A stretch of DNA of 64,000 bases from Lamellibrachia columna (taxonomy: Eukaryota > Annelida > Polychaeta > Sabellida > Siboglinidae): positions 7,612,338 through 7,676,337 of the forward strand of contig OY759265.1 in NCBI GenBank assembly GCA_963662155.1, given 5' to 3'. Position numbers and translations under genes: made by a program. Below are positions 1 to 60,969 of the stretch, one piece after another. The stretch's first letter is position 1. Every line of letters begins with the position of its first letter. The notes below the pieces were generated by a model, which was given only the letters and a program-made list of their open reading frames with translations, made no database searches and was not told the DNA's origin.

Positions 1-1138
1 CGACAGTCTCCCAATGCAGCCGGCGCGCCGTAGCCCGAGTCCACGCCGGGTTTGAAGTGAGTTCGCGTGTGCTCGCGTGCTCAGCTGTCGGAATATTGGA
101 ATAACACCGCTGGCGCTCAGCGGCCGCCGTGGAAGCGTCCACTAGTCTAATGCGTCGTCAGCGGAGCGGTGACGTGTTACCAGCGGTGATGAAAAGGATA
201 GCCGGTAAAAGTCTAAGCCGAAGGTTAACCCTCGAGGCAGGTTCCGCCTATTACGTCTGCTATCGTTTGTTCCGCTATATTTCCACATGGATTGCTGACG
301 ACGGATTATTTCGTAACAGTTAATTCGCCCGCGCATATGCCACCGCCAGGTCAACGGATAAATAAGCAGATCTCGGTAAAGATTAAACGGGATTACGAGA
401 ACCAGCGCTGCCGTTTATGTCGGCGACCCAACCATCTGGACAGGGGCCATGACGGCGCCCAGCGTCTATTTTGGCGCGTTTCCGCTTCGTGCTTGTTTTC
501 AAAGCTTCTCCGGACGCTGCTGCCTAGAAATGTGCAGCTCCTATCAAGTGAACACTATCACGTATTCGCATAGCCAGAACTGCTTCCTACACTCTATATC
601 GTTGTATGTCCTAGTGTTTAAGCCTTCGGAAGCTATGTGTGAAATCCAGTTGTTTTTTTACCTGGGAATTGTTGCTATCTTGTATGTTTAGTGGTTTGAT
701 ACAACCAGTGTCATTGGCAAAGTTTGAAAGTATGGACGGGGGAAGGGATATATAGTACTCCATTTTATCAACACAAATCTGCGGACCATAGCAAATGAGG
801 TATAAATGGAAAGCTGTTTGAACACACTTATCAGTGTTGCTACACTTAACATGTAATTATGCATGAATGACATCATTATGACATCATACATGAACTATCT
901 TATATACTTTACTTGAAATGTTGTTTCAGGCTTGATGTACTCAACGTATTCTGTCCATAATGTTTTTGTTTTACTTGTTGCCAGTGTTCTCTGTAACTGT
1001 TAACATGTGTGCATGCACATAATTGTGGGAATATAGCAAAGTAATTTCGGATGCGGCAACAAATCCCAATTTTAGGATGACGCTGATATGCCGTGTGAAT
1101 GAAACATTGAAATGAAGGCCTTTCGTGAAGCTAATGCA
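1..1138. other. Left flank, no recognisable gene
   Basis: The first 500 or so bases are GC- and CpG-rich compared with the AT-rich sequence that follows. This could be a CpG-rich promoter or 5' exon of a host gene running off the left edge, but the short open frames on either strand (60-95 codons) resemble no family I know. From about 560 onward the sequence is AT-rich with scattered stops. I see no splice-bounded exon, RNA gene or transposon end here. Confidence 0.3.
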
Positions 1139-1510
1139 AGATGTGACAAACAGTGCCCAATCTCAACGTCTTCACGAAATGTACTGTCAGTACAAGGACA
1201 AGATGTGACAACCAGTGACCAATGTCAACGTCTTCACGAAATGTACTGTGAGTACAAGGACAAGATGTGACAACCAGTGACCAATGTCAACGTCTTCACG
1301 AAATGTACTGTGAGTACAAGGACAAGATGTGACAACCAGTGACCAATGTCAACGTCTTCACGAAATGTACTGTGAGTACAAGGACAAGATGTGACAACCA
1401 GTGACCAATGTCAACGTCTTCACGAAATGTACTGTGAGTACAAGGACAAGGTGTGACAACCAGTGACCAATCTCAACGTCTTCACGAAATGTACTGTGAG
1501 TACAAGGACA
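1139..1510 (+). repeat. 62-bp tandem repeat, six copies
   Basis: The unit beginning AGATGTGACAACCAGTGACC recurs at 1139, 1201, 1263, 1325, 1387 and 1449, each exactly 62 bp apart, and a further partial copy starts at 1511. Copies are nearly identical; the first is the most diverged. 62 is not a multiple of three, so no reading frame is kept through the array. One frame of the last copy reads RLHEMYCEYKDKVR and runs straight into the pseudogene that follows, so the unit appears to be an amplified piece of that gene's coding sequence. Confidence 0.95.
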
Positions 1511-3153
1511 AGGTGCGAAATTGTGAACTGGGACGAACTGCACAGTCTTGGATCCAGTATATGGACATGATCTGGTTGGTGCTGAGATTCCTTCGAGCTA
1601 CGAAAGAACAACTTCGATCTGCACCTGGCCTGTGTTCAAGAATTATGGTCTTTGCTGTTCAGTGTAGACCACCACAACTATGCTCGGTACCTGTCCATCT
1701 ACTTTCTAACACTCCTGAACCTGTCACGTCCTCACACAGGGGCTGAAATTTGCTAAGAAACTGCGGGTTCAGTGTGTCCAGATCAGATGCGCCAGCATCA
1801 AGAAATCCGGTTGACTTTACTATTGGACAGACGATCAAACCCCTACCAGGGTTGGGATCACCGGGTTCAGCAGAAACTATCCAGCCTACTACTGATGGTG
1901 TATGACCAAAAATTCCAGAGCAGGCTACGTAGAGACCACATTGGAAATGTCAAATATGACACGCTCCGAAGACACAGCACACAAAGACCTTCGGCCATCA
2001 GAGATCATACATGGCAAGAAAGATCTTCAGACACTGATAACTGCTTTCCACAATTTCATAAATCCATTTGACGTTGAGGTCAATGAAGACCTGTTTTGCA
2101 TTTTTTCTGGCGCACGAGCCCGAAATGAAGTTGCGAATGATATCTTGAATGCTGAAGCAGTTGGCAAAGCAGCATTCAAAACCTGTATCCAAAAGAGGCT
2201 TGTTACCAAAACTCTCAAATTCCACGAACCTCTTCCAAGGCAGTCCTTAAAGACGTTTGGTTCTCTTGAGAAGACCAAGAAGCTAAAGTCCTCGAAGATG
2301 AAGATAATCCAAATATCCGCACAACTGAATCTCTTTGGACAGCTGCTAATTCTCTCTGAAGACAACAACCTTAGTCTACAGAAAGTACTGCAATATCCAC
2401 TTGGTTCGGTCCGATGGGCTTTAGCTACACCGGATGGGTTTCCAGTAAAGACAGACAACGCCAAACTGATGCACCAGCTTGAAGATGATGCTGCGCTGGT
2501 TCACCATCCTTGCCTTGACGACTTGGGTGCATACGTAGTTGATGGGAACGTTCTACTGCAGCACTCACTGCTTTGTCTCAGACATTGGGAGAGTTGTCTA
2601 ATAAACTGCTCAGCGTGCTGCCCAAGGTGAAGAGGGTGGACTTTGTGACCGACACCTACAAGGACAACTCAATCAACTCAACTGAAAGAAGACGATGTGG
2701 AACGGATGCATTCCTCGTTAAACGCCAAAAGAAGGGAAATCATTTCTGTCAAGCATTGACAACAAAACAAATTTGATCAGGCTTCTGCTGTCAGAGTGAC
2801 AAAAGGCAAAGTATGCTGCACAACTCCAGGGTCGTCAGATCTCCTTTGTCTGCGGGAACAGCTGTATCTCATTGACACAAGCTGATGGCATCACTGTAGA
2901 AAGTTCTCCCGTTGCAGCAATCTCCTCGTCACAGGAAGCAGCTGACACACGAATCATGTTACACTGTTTCCATGTAGTTACATCATGTACATCTGACCTC
3001 ATCGTCCGATCGCCCGAAACCGATGTGTTCATATTGCTTCTGTATTATGGTAACCGAATAGAGCAGAACGTGTTTATGGATGTTTTAGGGGCACTTGGCG
3101 AGAGAGACGGCGTTCCTGAAGGTAGTCAGACCGAGCTGGAGTTGTTTGTTTGA
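1453..3153 (+). pseudogene. Decayed member of a repeated invertebrate gene family (EADTR / SPETDVF signature)
   Basis: Open segments in several frames at 1453-1746, about 1600-1900, 1902-2630, 2573-2776 and 2872-3153 together follow, in order, a large uncharacterised family present in many copies in cnidarian, mollusc and arthropod genomes. Recognisable blocks: ELGRTAQSWIQYMDMIWLVL, NNFDLHLACVQELW, NYARYL, GFSVSRSDAPASRNPVDFTI, HKDLRPSEI, INPFDVE, a YPLGSVRWALATPDG block near 2400, RVDFVTDTYKDNSI near 2635, SSQEAADTRIMLHC near 2930 and IVRSPETDVFILLL near 3010. Frameshifts and stops break it at least five times and the C-terminal third is missing. The EADTR and SPDTDV blocks resemble the acidic motifs of PIN/FEN-like nucleases; that is my inference, and no function is established from this sequence. 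A + strand CR1 LINE starts just downstream. Confidence 0.75.
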
Positions 3154-4174: not shown

Positions 4175-7011
4175 ATGCCTCAAGCAGGACAAGAGGCCGC
4201 TAGTACAGATAAGCCAATAACAAAATGTCCGAAAAACATGTCTGAAGCAGGTTATAGATGCGTGAGTTTAAATGCTAGGAGTATAATAAATAAGAAAAAC
4301 GAATTAAACATTATGGTAGAAGATATTGACCCTCACATAATTGGTATAACCGAATCATGGGCCAACACAGACATTACAGATGCTGAATTAGGATTGACAG
4401 GATACGTAATGTTTAGGAGAGATCGAATAGGAAGAAGGGGAGGGGGAGTTATTTTATATGTTAAAGAATCTATTCAGGCTTATGAAATAAAATTAGAAAG
4501 CGAAGTAGATTACGATGAAGCTGTTTGGTGCAAAATAGTTTCAGGAAATTCAAAATTAACTATTGGATTAGTTTACCGAAGTCCAAACATAAACGAAGCG
4601 GATAACACAAAAATACAAAATGCTATAAAGGAAGTTAGTAAAGGGGAATGTATCATAATGGGAGATTTTAACCATGGACACATACAATGGAAATATCAAG
4701 AGAGTACAGGGGGTGATGACCAACAATTTTTAATTCAGGAGAGCTTCCTTACTCAGCACGTGCTAGAACCAACCAGGGGAGAAAATGTATTAGATATAGT
4801 TTTATCATCACAAAAAGAATTTGTCGATAATGTAAAAATACATGAACCACATGAATCATTGGGTAACAGTGACCACAATCAAATACATTTTGACATCAAC
4901 GTAAAATCAGAAAGTAAAATAAAAAACGTATAGGAGAAACTTCCACAAAGGTAACTATAAAGATATGAGAAAATACTTAGCAAAGCTAGATAGGAATAAC
5001 ATGCTGATGAATAAGACCGCAATTGAATGTTGGAATATTCTAAAATATAAAATTGAGAGTATCATCGATAAATTTGTTCCCTTGAAAAAACAAGGAAAAC
5101 GGTCTAGAAAGAAACACTTGTCAAAAGAAGCTATTAGAAAAATAGTGTTTAAGCAAACTATGTGAAGGGTTTATATGCGTACCAGAAAGGATGAAGACTA
5201 TGCAAATTACAAAGAGGCACTTAACCTAGCTACAACTGAAATTAGAAAATCTAAAAGAACCTTTGAAAAAAAATTGGCAGGTAATATAAAAAATGACAGC
5301 AAGAGTTTCTATGCTTATGTAAGGAGTAAACAGAACGTTCGAGATAAGGTCGGCCCACTGGAAAACAACAGGGGAAACATAATTTCAGAGGGGTTTCAAA
5401 TGGCAGAGGTCCTGAATGAGTATTTCAGCTCAGTATTAACCACAGAAGATATCAGCTCACTTCCAGTTCCATTTACTAAATTTGAGGGAAATAAATCAGA
5501 ACATTTAGGGCAGTTATATGTAACTCCTGTAATGATAGCAAAAAAAATTAAGAAGATGAAAGATAATAAATCACCTGGAGTTGATGGGATACCACCAAAA
5601 CTGCTTAAAGAAATTGTTGAGCAAATTAGTACACCACTTGCAAAATTGTTTAACTTGTCACTAGACGAAGGAATAGTTCCATCAGAATGGAAAGAAGCAA
5701 ACATTACGCCACTATTTAAGAAGGGATCGAGGAACAAGCCAGAAAATTACAGACCAGTGAGTTTAACATCAGTTATATGTAAATTACTCGAAACATTAAT
5801 TAGAGACCACATGGTGGAATTCCTTGTAAAACATAATTTAATAAATACATCTCAACATGGGTTCCTAAAAGCAAGATCATGTCTAACCAATCTCTTGTGT
5901 TTTTTTGAAGAAATTACAAAGTGGGTAGATGACGGGTCACCAGTGGATGTTGTCTACTTAGATTTTCAGAAAGCTTTCGATAAAGTGCCACACCAAAGAT
6001 TGATACTTAAACTAAAAGCCCATGGTATAGGTAATGATGTAATCAACTGGATAGAAAAGTGGCTTACACACAGAAGACAGAGAGTAATAGTAGACGGTGA
6101 GATTTCAAACTGGAAATCGGTTTTGAGTGGGGTACCACAGGGATCAGTATTAGGCCCTATACTGTTTTTACTATATATAAATGATCTAGAAGATGACATA
6201 TCTAGCAAAGTAATCAAATTTGCAGATGACACAAAAGTATTCAGAAAGGTTACAAATTATATAGATAAACAAAGTTTACAGGATGATCTAGATAAATTAG
6301 TTAAATGGTCAGAAAAATGGCAAATGTTATTCAATTTTTGGAAGTGCAAATGTATACACATAGGGCATGGAAACATGGACGAAGAATATAAAATGGGGGG
6401 TGCTGTACTAGGTAGAACCACACAAGAAAAGGACTTAGGAGTAACATTAGTGCTGACATGAAAGTTTCAGAGCAATGTGGGATTGCTGCTTCAAAAGGAA
6501 ATCAAATTCTAGGAGAACTATCATGTATAAGGAGAAACAGCTAATTGTACCCCTGTATAAAGCAATAGTTAGACCACATTTGGAATATTGTATTCAAGCA
6601 TGGAGGCCGTATCGTAAAAAGGACAAGCTAGAAAGAATACAACGAAGAGCAACCAAAATGATTCCAGAATTGAGAGACCTTAGTTATGAAAGTCGCTTAT
6701 TACAATGTGGTTTGACAACACTAGAGACAAGGAGATTAAGAGGAGACCAAATAGGAGTATTTAAAATAGTGAACGGTTATGAGGATGTTGATAGTAATAT
6801 GTTCTTCAAACTTAAATAAGGCAGTAGAACCAGAGGACACAAAGCAGCATTAGTTAAGGAGCAGTGTAGGTTGGACATGAGAAAGTACTCTTTCTCACAG
6901 AGGGTGATAAATGAATGGAACAAACTGCCAAATGATTGTGTTAATTCTAGTAGTGTGAATATGTTTAAAAATAGAACTGACAGATATTTGATAAGGGCGG
7001 GCTACACATAG
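4175..7011 (+). pseudogene. CR1 ORF2, endonuclease plus reverse transcriptase (broken)
   Basis: ORF2 follows ORF1 by about 20 nt. The first segment (4175-4933) is an apurinic-type endonuclease: SLNARSIINKKNEL, GITESWANTD, GGGVILYVKE, GLVYRSPN, IIMGDFNHGHIQW and the catalytic SDHNQIHFDI block. The RT segment (5175-6461) contains [66 protein letters not shown] and the catalytic FADD at 6219-6230. The thumb and C-terminal part lies at 6475-6819 and continues to TAG at 7009-7011. Breaks: frameshift near 4930, TGA at 5163-5165 where copy B has Trp, a 1-nt deletion near 6450, a 10-nt deletion near 6515, and a TAA near 6817. Intact CR1 ORF2 is about 900 residues, so the coding length is essentially complete. 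Confidence 0.93.
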
Positions 7012-17772: not shown

Positions 17773-18401
<629 letters not shown>

Positions 18402-18965: not shown

Positions 18966-19490
<525 letters not shown>

Positions 19491-19624
19491 AGCCCTGCAA
19501 TAGCATCCAAAAAACTTTACACTACTGACTGCTGTCACCTAGCGAATGGCATTACAACTACGAAAGTTAGGAAGACGCTAGTTCATCCTCACTAGGTGGC
19601 GCTCCTGTACACAGCTGGGCAGGT

Positions 19625-22547: not shown

Positions 22548-22655
22548 TTGCAAAAGGGCATACAAAAGGGCATACAAAAGGGCATACAAAAGGGCATACA
22601 AAAGGGCATACAAAAGTGCATACAAAAGGGCATACAAAAGGGCATACAAAAGCGC
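22548..22655 (+). repeat. 12-bp tandem repeat, about nine copies
   Basis: Unit GGGCATACAAAA, with one GTGC and one GCGC variant. The minus strand reads as repeating CMPF, an artefact of a 12-bp period. Confidence 0.93.
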
Positions 22656-22659
22656 ACAA

Positions 22660-24040: not shown

Positions 24041-24779
24041 TATATATGGTATATAATTTGCACGTTTTCATCAGGGTCCGCTTTGCCCCAGGTTACTCTA
24101 CTCTGTGACATATATTTAACGTTTTAATATTCCGTATTTCTAAGAAAGAAACAAATGACGCTGAGGAAATGACATCTAATAAAGGACATTGGCAGTCCGA
24201 GCAGAAAGAACAGCGACCACATAAGCGATAACGTTCATATGTCCATATTAATTCATCTCGATAATGATGTTATCTCAGAACGCTTGGGCAATCAGTGTTA
24301 TTAGCGCAGCACGGCTGGCATCATAGCGTTAACATAAATCCATGTTGTGTCAGTCTCATACATTGGCTGCAAACACAGAACAGCAAGAATGGCTTTGCTT
24401 CTTGAAATCAATCATATGGTTTGATTTATGACAACAATCAAATACTGGACTTTACTCGTGTAATTTTTATCACTGCTGCCAATTCTGCATCTGCGACAAT
24501 AGTGATGAATTATGTAATTGTAGGCACAATTGGTCATAACTGTTTTGCACAAATTACTAACATATAGTCTTGCTCACCAAAGTGAGACCACCGCAAATAA
24601 ACAATGTTTGTGTCCAACGATGAATTGTGTACAATCTGCTTGCGTTTTCATTCAAAACATAGGGCTAGTTGATGCACCAACAACATAGCTAGTTTGTGCT
24701 TGCAAGCTGTTGCGATGAGTAGCTTACTCATTATAAATAGCCCTCTCGTCATTTGTCTGAGAAACCCGGCCACTATTAG
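24039..24779. other. Unassigned spacer
   Basis: No recognisable gene; the sequence leads into the degraded LINE RT that begins near 24780. Confidence 0.3.
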
Positions 24780-25132
24780 TCGTATTTTAACAATTCTCTC
24801 ACCTGTTTCTGAGGATGAGGTCAGAAACATCAGTATAGCATCTCCTCCCCAATCCCGCGCTCTCGGTCGTCTTCCAACAAGGTTGATGCCAGTTTGTTTA
24901 AGTGCACTTGTCCCATGTCATTACCAGGATTGCGAACACCCCACTAGCCACAGGAGACATGTCAGCCAACTTGACAGCAGTACTTGTGACTCCGCTCCTC
25001 AGGAAGTCCCTGGATGTAGACTGTATCACACATTTACTAACCGATTTGAAATCTGAGTGTCCTCTCCAAAGTCACCGAGAAGATGGTGTCCTCAGGTTTG
25101 TCATGTCGTATGACTGAACACAACCACGACCT
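24780..25132 (+). pseudogene. Non-LTR RT, N-terminal part (split by tandem array)
   Basis: Frames at 24694-25056 and 24902-25117 carry FxPVSEDEVRNI, LGRLPTRLM, LVP.ITRIANTPLATGDMSA, LTAVLVTPLLRKSLDVD and, in the third frame, SKVTEKMVSSGLSCRMTEHN. This is the RT fingers region of an L2/CR1-like LINE (pattern DPLPTxLxK...P.IT.IVN.SL..G..P...K.A.V.PLLKK...D, then KV.EK.V...L...L..HNL). The next codons expected in such elements, (E)VxQSAYxxxHSTETAL, are the first unit of the 54-bp array at 25133. Frameshifts and a deletion of the NYRPVSNL block are evident. Confidence 0.8.
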
Positions 25133-27444
25133 GAAGTGGTCCAGTCAGCATACAAGCATGGTCATAGTACAGAGACAGCACAACCTGAAGTGATCCAGTC
25201 AGCACACAAACATGATCATAGTACAGAGGCAGCACAACCTGAAGTGATCCAGTCAGCATACAAGCATGGTCATAGTACAGAGACAGCACAACCTGAAGTG
25301 GTCCAGTCAGCATACAAGCATGGTCATAGTACAGAGACAGCACAACCTGACGTGAACCAGTCAGCATACAAGCATGGTCATAGTACAGAGACAGCACAAC
25401 CTGAAGTGATCCAGTCAGCACACAAACATGGTCATAATACAGAGACAGCACAACCTGACGTGAACCAGTCAGCATACAAGCATGGTCATAGTACAGAGAC
25501 AGCACAACCTGAAGTGATCCAGTCAGCACACAACCATGGTCATAATACAGAGACAGCACAACCTGAGGTGATCCAGTCAGCACACAAACATGATCATAGT
25601 ACAGAGACAGCACAACCTGGAATGATCCAGTCAGTACACAAACATGGTCATAGTACAGAGACAGCACAACCTGAAGTGATCCAGTCAGCACACAAAAATG
25701 ATCATAGTACAGAGACAGCACAACCTGGAATGATCCAGTCAGCACACAAACATGATCATAGTACAGAGACAACACAACCTGACGTGAACCAGTCAGCACA
25801 CAAACATGGTCATAGTACAGAGACAGCACAACCTGACGTGATCCAGTCAGCACACAGACATGGTCATAGTACAGAGACAGCACAACCTGACGTGATCCAG
25901 TCAGCACACAGACATGGTCATAGTACAGAGACAGCACAACCTGAGGTGATCCAGTCAGCACACAAACATGGTCATAGTACAGAGACAGCACAACCTGACG
26001 TGAACCAATCATCACACAAACATGGTCATAGTACAGAGACAGCACAACCTGACGTGATCCAGTCAGCACACACACACATGGTCATAGTACAGAGACAGCA
26101 CAACCTGACGTGATCCAGTCAGCACACAAACATGATCATAGTAAATAGACAGCACAACCTGACGTGATCCAGTCAGCACACACACATGGTCATAGTACAG
26201 AGACAGCACAACCTGAGGTGATCCAGTCAGCACGCAAACATGGTCATAGTACAGAGACAGCACAACCTGACGCGATCCAGTCAGCACGCAAACATGATCA
26301 TAGTGCAGAGACAGCTTAACCTGACGTGATCCAATCAGCACGCAAACATGGTCATACTACAGAGACAGCACAACCTGACGTGATCCAGCCAGCACACAAA
26401 CATGGTCATAGTACAGAGACTGCACAACCTGACGTGATCCAGTCAGCACGCAAACATGATTATAGTACAGAGACAGCACAACCTGACGTGATCCAGTCAG
26501 CACACAAACATGATCATAGTACAGAGACAGCACAACCTGAAGTGATCCAGTCAGCACACAAACATGGTCATAGTAAAGAGACAGCACAACGTGAGGTGAT
26601 CCAGTAAGCACGCAAACATGATCATATGACAGAGACAGCACAACCTGACGTGATCCACTCAGCACACACACATGGTCATAGTACAGAGACAGCACAACCT
26701 GACGTGATCCAGTCAGCACGCAAACATGATCATAGTGCAGAGACAGCTTAACCTGACGTGATCCAATCAGCACGCAAACATGGTCATACTACAGAGACAG
26801 CACAACCTGACGTGATCCAGTCAGCACACAAACATGGTCATAGTACAGAGACTGCACAACCTGACGTGATCCAGTCAGCACGCAAACATGATTATAGTAC
26901 AGAGACAGCACAACCTGACGTGATCCAGTCAGCACACAAACATGATCATAGCACAGAGACAGCACAACCTGAAGTGATCCAGTCAGCACACAAACATGGT
27001 CATAGTAAAGAGACAGCACAACGTGAGGTGATCCAGTAAGCACGCAAACATGATCATAGGACAGAGACAGCACAACCTGACGTGATCCAGTCAGCACGCA
27101 AACATGGTCATAGTACAGAGACAGCACAACCTGACGTGATCCAGTCAGCACACAAACATGGTCATAGTACAGAGACAGCACAATCTGAGGTGATCCAGTC
27201 AGCACACAAACATGATCATAGTACAGAGACAGCACAACCTGACGTGAACCAGTCAGCACACAAACATGATCATAGTACAGAGACAGCACAACCTGACGTG
27301 AACCAGTCAGCACACAAACATGGTCATAGTACAGAGACAGCACAATCTGAGGTGATCCAGTCAGCACACAAACATGATCATAGTACGGAAACAGCACAAC
27401 CTGACGTGAACCAGTCAGCACACAAACATGGTCATAGTACAGAG
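25133..27444 (+). repeat. 54-bp tandem repeat, about 43 copies, derived from LINE RT codons
   Basis: The unit is 18 codons, encoding EVIQSAHKHGHSTETAQP on the + strand; the minus strand also stays open (LTGSRQVVLSLYYDHVCV). Variants include QSAYKHGH, QSARKHDY, NQSAHKH and HSKETAQR. Units 26326-26607 recur almost exactly 432 bp later at 26758-27039, a higher-order duplication of eight units. The translated unit matches the RT motif VxQSAYxxxHSTETAL expected at exactly this point of the flanking LINE. I see no reason to regard the open frames as expressed protein: frame interruptions occur at about 26080, 26150, 26320, 26607 and 27039. Confidence 0.97.
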
Positions 27445-27489
27445 TACATACTATCATGACTTTAGTACAGAGACAGCACCGATGAGGAT

Positions 27490-27960
27490 CCGGAATGAAT
27501 GACTCTTGTCTGTGGATAATCGTTGCCTTTCCTGTCTGGTCCTGCTGTGCCACGATTGACACAAAATTCCTGTATCACGTCTGTCAAACAGGAACGCTCT
27601 TTCAGGGACAGCGTTGGAGTGGTTCACATGTCTGGGATCATCTGTCAGCTTGAGAAATGCATTGCGGATACAGGCCGTTGGGTGACAACAAACACTTCAA
27701 CTAAATGATAACAATATTGAGGTACTTGTTCGCGGATATATATATATATATATATTGTTCTGGTCTGGTCTGCAGATCCGAAATGTTGAAGAAGAATCAC
27801 ATTCAAGATACTTGTCACCAAGGTTATTACCTCCAAACTAGATGGTTGTAACTCTCTGCTATATGACATTAGTACGTGTCAACCACAGAAAGAATCACAG
27901 TCAAGATACTTCTCATCAGATTCAAAGCACTCTTCTTCTTCTTCCTCTTGAGCTCATAAC
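27490..27960 (+). pseudogene. Non-LTR RT, C-terminal parts beyond the tandem array
   Basis: After the array the LINE resumes in degraded form: CLVLL, SRLSNRNALSGTALEWFTCL (RT palm flank, pattern GTxLxWFxSYL) near 27575-27640, a large internal deletion, then TKVITSKLDGCNSLLYDI at about 27825-27870 (C-terminal pattern VTSRLDYCNSLLYGLP) and KESQSRYFSSDSKHSS (pattern RI.FKILLL.FKALH). A short (TA)n lies at 27737-27755. Order and content show the array sits inside one element. Confidence 0.7.
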
Positions 27961-30019: not shown

Positions 30020-30308
30020 CAACTTCGTGCCCCACAAACCATGCACAACTTCGTGCCCCACAAACCATGCACAACTTCGTGCCCCACAAACCATGCACAA
30101 CTTCGTGCCCCACAAACCATGCACAACTTCGTGCCCCACAAACCATGCACAACTTCGTGCCCCACAAACCATGCACATCTTCGTGCCCCACAAACCATGC
30201 ACAACTTCGTGCCCCACAAACCATGCACAACTTCGTGCCCCACAAACCATGCACAACTTCGTGCCCCACAAACCATGCACAACTTCGTGCCCCACAAACC
30301 ATGCACAA
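30020..30308 (+). repeat. 26-bp tandem repeat, about 11 copies
   Basis: Unit AACTTCGTGCCCCACAAACC ATGCAC, nearly invariant; one copy near 30171 has ATCTTC. Because 26 is not a multiple of three and the unit lacks stops in any phase, five reading frames are open across the array. Confidence 0.97.
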
Positions 30309-30566
30309 CTGTCGGTTTCACGAAGCATTCGTACCGTACGAATATATTATTGAATCTTTATTTTAAACAACAATAATAGACAACAACAATAATATAACAA
30401 CATTTCATAACTATGAAATTGTCGAAAAAAGGACAAGAAGAAGTGTAATATTTATGTCACTTGCCCTATTACAAATATAAATAAACAGTACTGAATAAAA
30501 TACAGTATGCAATTGTACGCATGTGACAGATTGTTTTGTTTTTTGTTTATTTACATTACTATCACA

Positions 30567-30750
30567 CTAATACAAGTTTGTGTCATCAGCAAATAAAATG
30601 AACTTAACTACCTTTAAAACATTACAAATGTCATTCATGTAGATGATAAATAGCTTTCGTCCTAAAATGGAATTTTGAGGAACACCACAACATACATTTA
30701 GTATGTCTGAATCATAATTTTTATACTGAACAAATTGTTTTGCAGTAGCC
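30567..30750 (-). pseudogene. Non-LTR RT palm fragment (FADDT)
   Basis: Minus strand reads KQFVQYKNYDSDILNVCCGV, PQNSILGRKLFIIYMNDICN and VVKFILFADDTNLY: an RT block with PQxSxLGxxLF and the catalytic FADD. The 30-bp array at 30755-31060 begins exactly where the residues preceding KQFV should be. The sequence downstream on the minus strand is not clearly RT. Confidence 0.85.
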
Positions 30751-30754
30751 GCCG

Positions 30755-31060
30755 TGTCTCTAGCCCCTGTCACAGTAGCCCCCGTGTCTCTAGCCCCTGT
30801 CCCAGTAGCCACCGTGTCTCTAGCCGCTGTCCCAGTAGCCGCCGTGTCTCTAACCCCTGTCACAGTAGCCCCCGTGTCTGTAACCCCTGTCCTAGTAGCC
30901 CCGTGTCTCTAGCCCCTGTCACAGTAGCCCCCGTGTCTCTAGCCGCTATCCCAGTAGCCGCCGTGTCTCTAACCCCTGTCACAGTAGCCCCGTGTCTGTA
31001 ACCCCTGTCCTAGTAGCCCCGTGTCTCTAGCCCCTGTCACAGTAGCCCCCCCTCCCCCCG
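30755..31060 (+). repeat. 30-bp tandem repeat, about 10 copies
   Basis: Unit GTAGCCCCCGTGTCTCTAGC CCCTGTCACA with point and single-base length variants (CCCC versus CCCCC). It abuts the minus-strand RT fragment. Confidence 0.93.
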
Positions 31061-34349: not shown

Positions 34350-36198
34350 TATCCCCACCCCCGGGGATTTTGTACGCATACACAATTTTAGCCCCAGACA
34401 TGCGAACTTAACGGAGATATGAGTGAACAGAGAGTCACAGACCACTTAATTGTTTAGACGGGTACTGATAACACCGACAAAGACGCTTAGATAGATTGAC
34501 TGTCCCCTGTGGCTCAAAACGATATTTTGTCACAAGCCGTGCAGCACATGTTCTGATAATCGACGAAAAATTACCTTAAACAAGCGTCGCTTTCAGTCGG
34601 TGCGCGCTATGGGACTGGGATTTGTGTGCAACATGCGCCACGATGCACATTTATGAAGCCAGGAGGTATTAGGACTACATTTGTCAACTGGTTCTTTTTC
34701 ATTTAATATGGTCTGACTGCAAGCGTCCCGTATAAACTATCCGTAAAGCCATTTGAAGTCTAATAACTCCTGGATATGCAATAAACTATTAACGAACAAA
34801 ATAGCATTGGTATCTCCATGGTAACACATCACCAATAAAGCCAGCAGTGTTCTGCATCTAGTGACGCCGTCGAGTGGTCGTTGTGTCGTCGTCGTGTCGG
34901 TGTCGTGTGAACTACTTGTCTTGTGCGACGTGAATCAGTATGTGTAACACTTATTGATACACACAAGACCATCCATCGTTATTGGCATGGGTTATACTCC
35001 TGAACTACGAGGACGGCTGTGATCATACAGCCCCGAACACAGACAGATCCTGACAACCAACGTGTTCGCTAACACCTACCGACAAGTCTGTTTACGTGTA
35101 CGCCTCCTGGTCAACTATAACTGTTACAGTTGCGATTTCTACGATAAATCGTAACGAGTAATTGGTGACACAAAATCACACACGAGACGGTCTTTCAAAA
35201 GTCCATCCTGAACTGATTTAGCCCATCGGGAATCAGGTTCCTTGATGTTCAAATATGTAGTGTGTGAGTAGTTTACCGGTACGAAATATGCGCAGTTGGC
35301 GTATAAAATAAAACAGTACGTAGGCTTTTGCTAGGAGCATCCAAAACATTTAGTTTTCTCAGCCGTGTTTACACGAAGCGACATGACGCCGCGATGTCGT
35401 GATTTTTACGTAAATAGACTCATGTCACGTGGGTTGTGATTTACACGTGGGTTGTGATTTACACGTGGGTTGTGATTTAAGTTACACAGAATGACGTTAT
35501 CGCGGCGACGCATTGCGTCGTATACAATTACAGCAGCATAAGCACTTTTATTAACGCATGACTGTGATGGTTGACTTATTCACGGAAATTTCCGTATAAA
35601 CCCAAGAGACATAGTAAACCTAACACCCAAGCAAACCCGTTATTAAAGATATGATAAAATATATTTTTGCTTTCAATCTGAACAATAAATATTGCAAAAC
35701 GAGCAGTTAGATTCTCTTTAAAACTACGGCTGGTAATTTGCGAAAAAAGAAGCGCAGTAACGTATGATGCAAAATAAACAAACCACGTTTGTTGGTGTCT
35801 GCAACTCGCGTATGTTTTGTAAATATTCGGGACCCGCCATGTGTATACCGACTCATGAATCGAGACAAGGGGATACCCACTCAGCCACGTATGGGACAGC
35901 CTGCTTACGTTGCCAACTGGCGAGCAGAAGAATAACTAGTCGTCCCAGAATTCAGTTCCCAGTGAAGGCCACCGAAGCGTTGAGTAGGAAAATCTCAATA
36001 GTTGTAATTAGAAAGAAAATCGTTATTATATTATTTAAAATATCACGTATATGGGAATCGACGCTTTTCTGCCACCCAAGTTTCAGTTTGATAGTTTTAT
36101 TATTTATCTTTGGCTCCAGGAAGGACCACAAGATAGATATACACATTATGTGACTCGACACTCGGTACGTGTGGCAGCAGTGCAGAACAATGGTCGTC

Positions 36199-45644: not shown

Positions 45645-45832
45645 CAACGGTGTTGTCGCCTACACTACTGGAAACAATACTCACTGGTGACAACGTTGTT
45701 GCCAACAATACTGAAAACAATGCGCATTGGGGACAACGTTTTTTGCCAACAATACTCGAAACAATGTTAATCGTTGACAATTTTGTTGCCAACGATGCTG
45801 AAAACAATAGTCAACGGTGACAAAGTTGCCTA
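45645..45832 (+). repeat. Diverged 43-bp tandem repeat, about four copies
   Basis: Units of the form GGTGACAACGTTGTTGCCAA CAATACTGAAAACAATGCGCATT recur with several substitutions each. It lies just downstream (in minus-strand sense) of the candidate exon, inside what would be its intron. Confidence 0.75.
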
Positions 45833-51753: not shown

Positions 51754-52100
51754 TGTCTGAACAGCTGTAGGAGCAGTTCGTTGATCGAACGCTGCAAGAT
51801 TAAACAAGAAGAACGGAAAAACCTTCGAGAGTCAACCGACAACTTAGTAAAAAGCTACAACAAACTGTACGTTCTCCGATATCGAACCAACCTGTCATAA
51901 GTAAACGTGTTAAATTATGCGTACTGTTGTGAGCTATATAAAGCTGTACATTTCCCCTTGTGTACGGATAGTGTGCTTAGTGTACGTGTTTTGTGTATGA
52001 AGTACACTTGTAATTAATTAAAGTCCACTTTCCCATATCACTTCACAAATCTCATCAACAGTTCAAAATGTCAAATATTCTTCTTGTGTAGCCGTAGCTT
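51754..52100. other. Unassigned spacer
   Basis: No recognised feature. Confidence 0.3.
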
Positions 52101-52480
52101 CATTTAGACCGTTGGCGTCTCCTTGCAGTCTCTCCAGCCACTTCGAGTCTACCATCTGTCCAACGCTTGATGTTGTCATTTAGACCGTTGGCGTCTCCTT
52201 GCAGTCTCTCCAGCCACTTCGAGTCTACCATCTGTCCAACGCTTGATGTTGTCATTTAGACCGTTGGCGTCTCCTTGCAGTCTCTCCAGCCACTTCGAGT
52301 CTACCATCTGTCCAACGCTTGATGTTGTCATTTAGACCGTTGGCGTCTCCTTGCAGTCTCTCCAGCCACTTCGAGTCTACCGTCTGTCCAACGCTTGATG
52401 TTGTCATTTAGACCGTTGGCGTCTCCTTGCAGTCTCTCCAGCCACTTCGAGTCTACCATCTGTCCAACGCTTGATGTTGT
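52101..52480 (-). repeat. 76-bp tandem repeat, five copies, from a LINE C-terminus
   Basis: Copies start at 52101, 52177, 52253, 52329 and 52405, exactly 76 bp apart and nearly identical (one CGTC/CATC variant). On the minus strand the unit encodes NIKRWTDGRLEVAGETARRR, which is the direct continuation of the LINE ORF2 tail in the adjoining 52480-52671 frame. The same sequence in single copy lies at about 28710-28780. Confidence 0.95.
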
Positions 52481-52680
52481 CAATCCAACCCATTTTCTCT
52501 GCCTCTTCGATTTTGTCTTGGTAGTTCTCCTTCTATGCTGGTAAGGACCAGACTCTCTGGTCTTCCTTTCCAATGGCCTACTAATCTAGACGCACCAAAT
52601 GTGAACAACACGATACGTAGTGTGGATGCTGTATCGCCTCGGGGGCAGAAACCTTTAAAAAATGAATCCATAGATAGGAT
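52480..52680 (-). pseudogene. LINE ORF2 C-terminus feeding the 76-bp array
   Basis: The minus frame includes SRLVGHWKGRPESLVLTSIE, GELPRQNRRGRENGLD and then the first array unit. It matches the same LINE tail pattern as 28510-28785 (GH..R..SLV....EGELP...GR). The element is otherwise absent. Confidence 0.65.
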
Positions 52681-56226: not shown

Positions 56227-56326
56227 TAACAAGATTTAACAAGATTTGCCATCCAAGCCAAAGGCCCAGATGGCAAGTGGACAAGGAAGCCATTGGCTTA
56301 TCGAGAGTCCAACAATGTTCATTTAC

Positions 56327-59187
56327 TTATAACTCGCCCTCCTGAGATATGTGTCAACCTTGTTTTTAAACATATTCACGCTGCTAGCAGTTACACAATC
56401 TGTAGACAATTTGTTCCATTCATTTATTGTCCTCTGTGAGAACGAGTGCTTCCTGATGTCCAATCTACATTGATCCTTTACTAATTTTACCTCATGTCCT
56501 CTAGTTCTGCTATCCTTCTTGAGTGAGAAAAACATATTTCTATCAATATTTTCATACCCATTCAATATCTTAAAAACTTCAATCTTATCTCCTCTTAACC
56601 TCCTTGTCTCTAGAGTTGTTAAACCACATTCTTTCAGGCGTTCTTCATAACTAAGGTCTCTCAGTTCTGGAATCATTTTAGTTGCTCTCCTTTGTATGCG
56701 TTCAAGCGTATCTATATCCTTCTTACGATAAGGTCTCCATGCTTGTATACAGTATTCTAAATGAGGTCTAACTATTGCTTTATAAAGAGGTATAATTAAC
56801 TTTTTTCCCTTGTATGTTATGTTTCTTCTAATCAATCCAAGAATTTGATTACCCTTTGAAGCTGCAATACCACACTGCTCTGAAACTTTCATATCAGCGC
56901 TTATTGTAACTCCTAATCCTTTTCTTTTACAGTAGTGCCCAGAACAGTATCTCCCATTTTATAGTTTACATTAAAGTTCCTATGTCCTGTATGTAGGCAT
57001 TTACATTTCCCAAAATTGAACAACATCTGCCATTTCTCAGACCATTTCACTAATCTGTCTAGATCGTTTTGTAAATGTTGTTTATCACCATCAGTATTAA
57101 CCTTTCTAAACAGTTTTGTGTCATCCGCAAATTTCAGTACGTTACTTGTTATACTGTCGTCCAAGTCATTGATATAAATTAAGAATAATATAGGTCCTAA
57201 TACTGATCCTTGAGGTACCCCACTCAAAACCGATTTCCAATTTGAAACTTCTCCATCTAATACAACTCGTTGTCTTCTGTCAGTCAGCCATTGTTCTATC
57301 CAGTCAGTTATGCTATCCCCGATACCATGGGCTTTTAATTTAAGTAGTAATCTTTGATGTGGCACTTTGTCAAAAGCTTTCTGAAAATCTAAGTAGATAA
57401 TATCTACTGGCGATCCCACGTCTATCCACTTAGTGATTTCTTCCAAAAAACATAACATATTTGTTAAGCATGACCTCGCTTTAAGGAATCCATGTTGAGA
57501 TTAATTTTATAATTTATGCTTAACGAGGAATTCCACCATATGGTCTTTAATTAACCTTTCTAATAATTTACAAATCACTGACGTTAAACTCACTGATTCT
57601 CTGACTTATTTCTCGAACCCTTTTTAAATAATGGTATGATGTTTGCTTCTTTCCATTCAAACGGAACAACTCCCTCTTTTAATGACAAGTTGAATACTCT
57701 TGCAAGTGGTATACTAATTTGTTCTACTGTTTCCATTAGTAATTTTGGAGGAATCCCATCCACTCCCGGTGATTTGTTATCCTTCATTGCCTTTATTTTC
57801 TTAGCTACCAATTCTGGAGTTACAACTAACGGACCTAAATAGTCAGATTTAGCCCCCTGAAATTTAGCATCAGCAACTGGTAATGAACTAATATCTTCTT
57901 TGGTAAACACTGAACTGAAGTAACCATTTAGGTCTTCCGCCATTAAAAACCCCTGTGATATTATATTTCCAGCACTGTCTTCTAGAGGTCCAACCTTGTC
58001 TTGTACGTTTTGTTTACTCCTGACATATGCATAAAAACTCTTGCTGTCATTTTTTATGTTACATGCTAGTTTTTGCTCATAGCTTCTTTTAGATTGTCTG
58101 ATTTCAGTTGTAGCTGCATTAAGTGCCTCTTTGTATTTTGCATAGTCTTCGTCCTTTCTGGTACGCCTATAAACCCTCCACATAGTTTGTTTTAGCATTA
58201 TTTTTCTAATAGCCTCTTTTGACAAGTGTTTCTTTCTACACCGTTTTCCTTGTTTTTGGAAGGGAACAAATTTATCGACGATACTCTCAATTTCATATTT
58301 TAGAATATTCCAACATTCAATTGCGGTCTTATTCATCAGCATGTTATTCCAATCTAGCTTTGCTAAGTATTTTCTCATATCTTTGTAGTTACCTTTGTGG
58401 AAGTTTCTCTTGTACGTTTTCTTATTTTTACTTTCTGATTTTACATTGATGTCAACATGTATTTGATTATGGTCACTATTACCCAATGGTTCAAATATGT
58501 TTACATTGTCCACTAATTCTTTTTGTGATGACAAAACTATATCTAATACATTTTCTCCCCTGGTTGGTTCTAGTACGTGCTGAGTAAGAAAGCTATCCTG
58601 GATTAAAAATAGAAATTGTTGGTCCTCAATCCCTGTGCTCTCTAGAGAATTCCATTGTATGTGTCCATGGTTAAAATCTCCCATTATGATACATTTCCCT
58701 TTACTAACTTCCTTTATAGCGTTTTTATTTTTGTGTTGTCCTCTTCGTTTATGTTTGGACTCCGGTAAACTAATCCAATAGTTAATTTTGAATTACCTGA
58801 AACAATTTTGCACCAAACAGCTTCATCGCAATCTGCTTCCCTTTCAAGTTTTATTTCATAAGCCTGAATAGATTCTTTAACATATAAAATAACTCCCCCG
58901 CCCCTTCTTCCTATTCGATCTTTCCTAAACATTACATATCCTGTCAGTCCTAATTCAGCATCTGTTATATCTATGTTGGCCCATGATTCAGTTATACCAA
59001 TTATGTGAGGGTCAATATCTTCTACCATAATGTTTAATTCGTTTTTCTTATTTACTATGCTCCTTGCATTTAAACATACGCATCTATAACCTTTTTCAGA
59101 GATGTTTTTCGGATGATTTGATATTGGTTTATCTGTGCTAGTGGCCTCTTGTTCTGCTTGAGACACCTCTAGGTAACCCCCCTGCAC
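56327..59187 (-). pseudogene. CR1 ORF2, endonuclease plus reverse transcriptase (copy B)
   Basis: Endonuclease: CLNARSIVNKKNELNIMVED, ITESWANIDITDAELGL and GLVYRSPN at 59187-58714, then after a frameshift IIMGDFNHGHIQWNSLE and LGNSDHNQIHVDI (58684 onward). RT: SPGVDGIPPKLLMETVEQIS, a roughly 10-nt deletion near 57590 removing part of NYRPVS, a second break near 57500, then [40 protein letters not shown] and the catalytic FADD at 57120-57131. A 1-nt deletion near 56905 shifts into the last frame (56892-56323), which carries YCIQAWRPYRKKD and RIQRRATKMIPELRDLSYEE to the end. Nearly complete, but inactive. Confidence 0.93.
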
Positions 59188-59189
59188 TT

Positions 59190-59687
59190 CTAGTTTAAAG
59201 AATGTTTACTTCCAAAAATATTTGTCATTGTACCCAAGTTTGTCCGCGAATACTGCCGCCCCTTTCCACTTAAATGAAGCCCATCCTTCATGTACATATC
59301 AGCCCTCCCAACAAAACTTCCCCATAAATCCACAAATCCAACTTCCTCTTCCCTACATAACTTCTGGACTAACATGTTAATTGCCATCCCCCGACAATTT
59401 CGATATGTGTGACCCCTCCTGCCCATTACAGGTAAAATCCCTGACAATATTACCTGCTCAACCCGCGTCTGTTTTAGTGTTCTGACCAACTGCCTATATT
59501 TCCTAACTATGGCAGTTGTACCCTCCCTCTCTACGTTATTTGTCCCTACGTGTACTAAAACAGATCCACCCTTACCCGAGCCTACGATGTTTTTTACCCT
59601 CTCAGTTATCGCCTCTATTTTGGCTCCAGGCAAGCAGACCACCACATCATCTCCCTTGTTTAAGACTCTGTCGGTCTTCCTAACTAT
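59190..59687 (-). pseudogene. CR1 ORF1 C-terminal part, SGNH/GDSL-like domain (copy B)
   Basis: Encodes VVCLPGAKIEAITERVKNIV, SVLVHVGTNNVERE, VILSGILPVMGRRGH, VGFVDLWGSFVGRADM and MKDGLHLSGKG, ending FGSKHSLN at 59190. It keeps the DLWGSF segment lost from copy A. After LSGKG the residues differ from copy A (RQYSRTNLG versus AAVFAEGLA), which indicates a small rearrangement or frameshift. The N-terminus is missing through truncation. Confidence 0.85.
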
Positions 59688-60969
59688 CGATTATTTTGTA
59701 TCATATCCGAATTTGTTATGTGACATTTCGTTCTAGATATAAACTGACTACCGGGCTCAACGTTGTTTATTCTTATCAAACTATGCCGAGCCATTGTCAT
59801 TAATCAACTGTTTCGGGATCAATACTACTACACGAACCGGCCGTTGGAATCGTTTCCCGGTATTTCACGAGGAAGAACAAAATCGCCGAGTGACAAGTTA
59901 GATTGCACAAAAAGCGGTAGATCTACTAGTTTTCATGATGTAAAGGGCAATAAGAGAAGATATGGTGGCGCGGGCCTCGGGTCGCGAGTGGGGGTGTGGA
60001 GGGGGGGGGAATTTTGTCTCTCGGCGGAAATTTTTTTCAATTTGAGGGTTACTTTTTATTTCTGTTGCATGTTGTAGTGGCTTTGAAATGGGTACATTTA
60101 TTTGTCTAACGTTGAAATTGTGGTTTTGTGGTAGATTTCGGCTCGAAAGCGGTCACAATTTCGGTATCACTAATGTGTGTAGCACGCATGGAGAAGGCAA
60201 GAAGAGACGCATTTAACGGAGCGGAAATATGAGGAGGGATCCGACCTGAGAATCGTGCGGAAAAGAAGGTCGTTTCTTGATGGAGTACACGCAGTGTCAC
60301 TGAATCCATCTATGTCCGAAATAACACAGTGTGTAGAAACAGCCGCCACAAACAAACGTCACATGTTAAAATCCAATTGCGGCAATTTTCCCGAAAACTA
60401 AACGGTCGGCGATACGGATTGCTACCTGTAGTGAAATTGGGTGTGCATCGTCCAAGTGATGCCTTTCTGTATATTGTCACTCTTACTCGTATGATGTATG
60501 AATTCTGGAAAGTTGTCCCAGTTTGTTTCCTAAATGATATGGCCAGCCTAAATGAGCTGCATCACGTGCACTGACCAGCACTGGTGAACTTTACCACCAA
60601 AACCGAGTTGAATTATTAACATTTTAAAGCATTGTGAACGTTGTTACTTGACGTCGATGAGTGGTGTCGGCGTTCGTACTGATGTGTCTATGCACGCTAT
60701 ATATTTGTATATTTATATTAGATGCACCCAGTGTGGTGTCTATCACTTACACCGCAATAGCTCGCCATGCACGAGAATGAACATACACTGTCACGTTTGC
60801 AGCGTTAGACAGCTTGACACGTCCTCTACAGAATCAACAGCGGTCTAGTAAACATCAACTGGTCAAACGTTTGCCATCATTTTGACCCAAGAACAAGAGG
60901 CACTTCTACCCGAAACCGCCACTGTGAAATGAGGTTACGGGCATCAAACCGCTTGGGAACTTATAGGAA
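59688..60969. other. Unassigned region between two CR1 copies
   Basis: CpG-richer around 59860-60000 with a G9 run at 60001. Open frames at 59763-60077 and 60329-60574 show no known domain. Confidence 0.3.

Follow-up and report, generated by a model that had tools for sequence, protein, structure and literature searches.

A 54-bp minisatellite inside a decayed LINE reverse transcriptase of Lamellibrachia columna, most likely founded in place by a reverse transcriptase motif

We analysed a 64-kb stretch of DNA from Lamellibrachia columna (hereafter the window; C5:7612338-7676337), which lies on a 63-Mb contig of a genome of 879.7 Mb in 30 contigs. Within the reverse transcriptase (RT) sequence of a LINE, the window holds a tandem array whose unit is tens of bases long, that is, a minisatellite (Table 1). 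Tandem Repeats Finder (TRF) gave a period of 54, 42.9 copies and 91% matches (score 3824), and decomposition of the array yielded 43 units, 42 of them 54 bp long, in agreement with the roughly 43 copies that a preliminary description had claimed from the letters alone. That description had given 24780-27960 as the minisatellite; the array does lie inside this interval, but the array proper runs from 25125 to about 27478, and the two outer positions are flank coordinates. A period of exactly 18 codons had also been claimed, which holds for 42 of the 43 units and fails at unit 18, where a 2-bp insertion (56 bp in all) leaves the frame discontinuous. The unit encodes the local RT segment EV(I/V/N)QSA(Y/H)KHGHSTETA, and mean pairwise identity among units 1-42 is 91.5%. 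The final six bases of unit 43 are already the right junction, and the last regular unit is followed, at about 27445-27478, by an incomplete copy of the motif.

Table 1. Features of the array and its flanks, and other tandem arrays in the window (positions are those of the window).
Feature	Position	Strand	Evidence
Left flank, decayed LINE RT, three frames	24769..25124	+	tblastn of P0002-P0008 and others; phmmer; blastn to L022, L023, L024, L026
54-bp minisatellite array, ~43 units	25125..27444	+	TRF and unit list
CAC, left edge of array	25125..25127	+	sequence; right edge of unit likewise CAC
Unit 1, RPEVVQSAYKHGHSTETA	25127..25180	+	contiguous with left flank; relatives' matches end one base beyond (25181)
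Unit 18, 56 bp, reading frame shifted	26045..26100	+	unit list
Block duplication, units 22-28 recurring as units 30-36 at 432-bp (8-unit) spacing	26263..27072	+	unit comparison, shuffles
Terminal divergent motif copy, VQSTYYHDFSTETA, shorter, leading straight into right flank	27437..27478	+	tblastn with P0024
Right flank, downstream part of same LINE RT, with stops and missing stretches	27479..27918	+	tblastn with P0024; blastn to relatives
Tandem array, period 62	1137-1512		TRF
Tandem array, period 12	22551-22656		TRF
Tandem array, period 26	30020-30310		TRF
Tandem array, period 30	30743-31049		TRF
Tandem array, period 18	35426-35479		TRF
Tandem array, period 43	45652-45828		TRF
Tandem array, period 76	52100-52482		TRF

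The sequence on both sides of the array has RT homology on one strand. When the left flank and unit 1, which are contiguous DNA, were read across frame changes and compared with a protein database numbering 5.77 billion, 34 of 71 candidates matched at E up to 1 (phmmer), ten of them below 1e-3 and the best at E 1.5e-10 (40% identity over 98% of the query). These 34 RT proteins, mapped back onto the window by tblastn, fall at 24769-25180 on the + strand in three frames. On the right side, RT protein P0024 aligned at 27437-27631 (+; 45% identity; E 3.8e-10 in a search of the window). The remaining tblastn matches, counting those between 24000 and 29000 that start outside the array, were weak, and several cross frame changes or enter unit 2. 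A PDB search with the left flank and unit 1 gave zero matches at E up to 1. Because Pfam likewise returned zero families at E up to 1 for either flank taken without the array, we regard this LINE copy as heavily worn. The flanks are thus one + strand LINE RT, as had been proposed, although not one that reads intact: the left side needs its three frames and the right side has stops. We take the left flank to be the fingers region of the RT and the element to be L2/CR1-like, a clade name suggested to us by its QSAYxxxHSTETAL motif. Given an E of 1.5e-10 in a database of this size, and 38 genomic matches to the unit pattern (described below) against 0 for the same pattern read backwards, the RT match of unit and flank is beyond chance.

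The order of the units preserves a block duplication. Two 432-bp segments, one starting at 26263 and the other at 26695, differ by 7 mismatches, and a lag of 8 units gave the highest mean identity among lags 1-21, with three identical pairs. When the order of units 1-42 was shuffled 2000 times, no shuffle reached the lag-8 value; lags 2 and 3 were also raised (values reached by 2 and 5 of 2000 shuffles), lag 1 weakly so (77 of 2000), and the best of lags 1-20 was matched by 8 of 2000. Near-identical blocks at 432-bp spacing can in general mislead an assembler, and the copy number could in that case be an artefact of an array collapsed or inflated during assembly. However, most units are unlike their neighbours, both edges of the array are unique sequence, and the assembly has the contiguity given above, so that we consider such an artefact very improbable.

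We then weighed whether the array could be a coding repeat under selection, encoding a histidine-rich repeat protein. It contains open stretches of 331 codons on the + strand (25118-26110) and 326 codons on the - strand (25104-26081), and, as had been remarked, few units carry stops: 5 of 43 (units 19, 23, 28, 31 and 36) have one in their own frame, from 3 distinct stop variants. Since the unit derives from an RT reading frame and its length of 54 bp is a multiple of three, this openness is inherited from the RT and is no sign of coding. Minor variants occupy 23, 55 and 37 cells at codon positions 1, 2 and 3 (13, 12 and 8 variable columns; counted without the last six columns of unit 43 and the two extra bases of unit 18). 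Among 40 distinct variants, 30 change an amino acid, 7 are silent and 3 create a stop, against 28.7, 9.8 and 1.5 expected from neutral proportions of 0.718, 0.245 and 0.037 (transitions weighted twofold); silent variants are thus not in excess over amino-acid-changing ones. The pattern is as expected without coding constraint, and nothing in it suggests selection on a protein. Moreover, the frame is broken at unit 18, and the array protein found zero homologues at E up to 1 among 7,996 candidates scored. Selection on a coding repeat is accordingly a reading to which we give very little credence, and we think it just as doubtful that some tissue would transcribe the open stretch and translate it into a histidine-rich protein of 18-residue repeats, newly born from the RT motif.

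The open reading frame at 25118-26110 scored 27.2 bits against the Pfam family RAG2_PHD, for which the cut-off is 27. No single stretch of it passes alone. We took the match as a probable repeat artefact; the score is a possible source of false annotation.

Related LINE copies elsewhere in the genome show the site in its unexpanded state. A 211-bp query that combined units 1-3 with 47 bp of the left flank returned 24 matches at E up to 10, of which 20 were in the array and 4 elsewhere: three on contig C15 within 75 kb (L022, L023 and L024) and one on contig C6 (L026). There are therefore at least four related copies besides that of the window (5 candidate places, 5 scored; very common words were skipped by the search). 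The outside matches span bases 2-102 of the query on C15 and 11-102 on C6, ending one base after unit 1. On the other side of the array, the right flank matches the relatives in pieces (window positions), which lie between 27463 and 27918 for L022 and L023 and extend up to 27854 for L024 and up to 27615 for L026, and some stretches present in the relatives are missing from the window's copy. In all four relatives the matches to the two flanks overlap, by 17, 17, 17 and 13 bp, whereas 2281 bp separate the same anchors in the window. Each 3-kb relative locus holds one copy of the motif by approximate pattern, TRF found no 54-bp array in any of them, and the CAC-CAC distance bounding the unit is 54 bp in three relatives and 56 in the fourth. 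Over the main left piece the relatives are 73-79% identical to the window and over the main right piece 70-78%; three of them reach 85% over a smaller left piece. At this distance they do not count as close kin, and an intermediate copy of 2-3 units may have escaped detection.

The three C15 copies resemble one another more closely: over about 1.6 kb, L022 shares 91% identity with L023 and 94% with L024 (blastn). Their proximity may reflect local segmental duplication.

These relatives bear on the idea that expansion took place while the LINE was active, with retrotransposition carrying the array along as the internal repeat of a subfamily. A period that is a multiple of three and a first run of 17 open units would suit such a history. 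Against it, we found no other array-bearing copy among copy counts that are lower bounds, and an RT with about 770 codons added in its interior should no longer work as an enzyme; we hold this history to be most unlikely.

We searched the host genome with a 44-bp pattern of the unit, allowing up to 3 mismatches. All 38 matches on the + strand lie inside the array, and the opposite strand gave 0. Beyond this locus, the searches found the motif only singly, in the four related LINE copies; arrays at many loci, as a satellite family would show, were absent at up to 3 mismatches. At this sensitivity there is no spread of the unit through the genome. Exact parts of the unit also had 0 matches in viral_contigs and genome_contigs, which hold viral, bacterial and archaeal records where the host may be absent, so this result carries little weight. 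Arrays and LINEs do frequently co-occur, yet an independent satellite that exists elsewhere and was inserted into the LINE, or that resembles it by chance, is the least credible reading of all and is refuted at a sensitivity of up to 3 mismatches in 44 bp, with all genomic unit matches in this one array and unit 1 being RT sequence in register with the left flank and the four relatives. Because all four relatives are single-motif copies with abutting flanks and all 38 unit matches fall in the array, the array most likely arose in place. The preliminary claim that a LINE coding motif founded it there is supported, and neither outcome that would have told against it was seen: both flanks match a single RT, in the same orientation, and no unit match outside the array appeared at up to 3 mismatches.

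The relatives also allow the direction of growth to be read, as a tendency. Units 3 and 4 are 2 and 1 bases from unit 1, the other later units 4 to 11. All four relatives have an A at unit column 9; of the 11 units that share it, 9 belong to units 1-12. TAC at columns 25-27, seen in two of the four relatives, is confined to 5 units (1, 3, 4, 5 and 7). As the units nearest to unit 1 and both of these states are concentrated on the left, the left end of the array tends to look oldest. All four relatives also have AAC at columns 13-15, which within the array is scattered over units 5, 7, 13, 17, 40, 41 and 43.

The founding junction can be read in two ways. The first duplication may have taken place between shared CACs (3 bp), which lie at 54-bp spacing, with one later G-to-A change. 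Alternatively, it may have used a shared AGCAC (5 bp), with 6 bp lost afterwards; in L022-L024 the two copies of AGCAC are separated by 57 bp, and in the window the left edge of the array reads AACAC. In either case, the short identity at the junction would be where the array began.

We propose that the array began in a LINE copy, decayed today, whose RT we presume to be L2/CR1-like. In it, a small tandem duplication would first have doubled a 54-bp stretch, which by chance encodes the QSAYxxGHSTETA motif. Slippage or unequal exchange would then have carried two copies to about 43 in place, probably after the death of the element, and at least one block duplication, at 432-bp spacing, came later. 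We are highly confident in this explanation as a whole, by which the array is a non-coding minisatellite of a single locus. Most likely it does nothing and is a by-product of repeat instability.

TA microsatellites elsewhere in the window lie in similar surroundings. A TA microsatellite at 18098-18346 is within LINE RT sequence beside a YINDL stretch, and a 124-bp piece is present there twice, each time with its TA run; another at 19057-19521 (-) directly follows a GVPQ stretch, again within LINE RT sequence. The RT sequence around both is presumably that of a CR1-like LINE, and these microsatellites may be another instance of repeats growing within an RT. TRF found seven other tandem arrays in the 64 kb with a period of 12 or more and at least 3 copies (Table 1). 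The LINEs at 5166-6458 and 56326-59690 have long open stretches on both strands and look younger; Pfam RVT_1 matches lie at 5166-6458 and 56916-57500, and the frame at 5166 has a 96%-identical relative, P0038, which represents 96 member sequences.

The founding sequence can be seen here together with both of its flanks, the unexpanded state in related copies and a subsequent block duplication, so that the array could serve as a worked example of minisatellite birth inside a transposable element (TE). Its birth is an ordinary, local route to tandem repeats. It also carries a warning, in that an open reading frame can be long in a tandem array, and can even pass a Pfam cut-off, without being a gene. 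The weight implied for the array in the preliminary description should be lowered, since the open frame is not evidence of coding, a dispersed satellite was not found, and TE-derived minisatellites, including arrays derived from LINE ORF2, are already known.

Models of minisatellite origin provide a first comparison. As described in PMC6947457, minisatellites may be founded by slippage or unequal crossing-over between short flanking repeats; the slipped mispairing model has an incomplete terminal unit, and that of Haber and Louis a duplication between flanking repeats of 5-10 bp (PMC3389668, PMC6947457). The array resembles these models in its incomplete terminal copy and in the short identities at its unit edges (PMC3389668, PMC6947457). 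It differs in that only the 3-bp CAC stands at 54-bp spacing, whereas the 5-bp AGCAC, 57 bp apart, needs the later 6-bp loss.

Several documented arrays are of the same kind. According to a survey of human minisatellites, 7,276 of 31,472 were TE-derived, and 601 were linked to L1, not counting the L1PA and LTR12 groups, which have built-in repeats (PMC3389668). These, like the array described here, are tandem arrays made from a piece of a TE and located in that TE, although the survey required at least 95% unit identity, above the mean of units 1-42 (PMC3389668). Among satellites, PROsat of Phodopus roborovskii and Pvc 20 of Phoca vitulina concolor are reported to derive from LINE-1 ORF2, and the chicken HinfI satellite from the 3' UTR and part of ORF2 of CR1 (PMC9659126). 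They share with the array a monomer related to LINE ORF2 sequence, but they are listed as satellite DNAs, whereas the array occupies a single locus and is still inside its founder (PMC9659126). With a unit homologous to the flanking TE and an unexpanded site in all four copies found, the array is a clean new example of the documented TE-derived minisatellites, some of which come from LINE ORF2.
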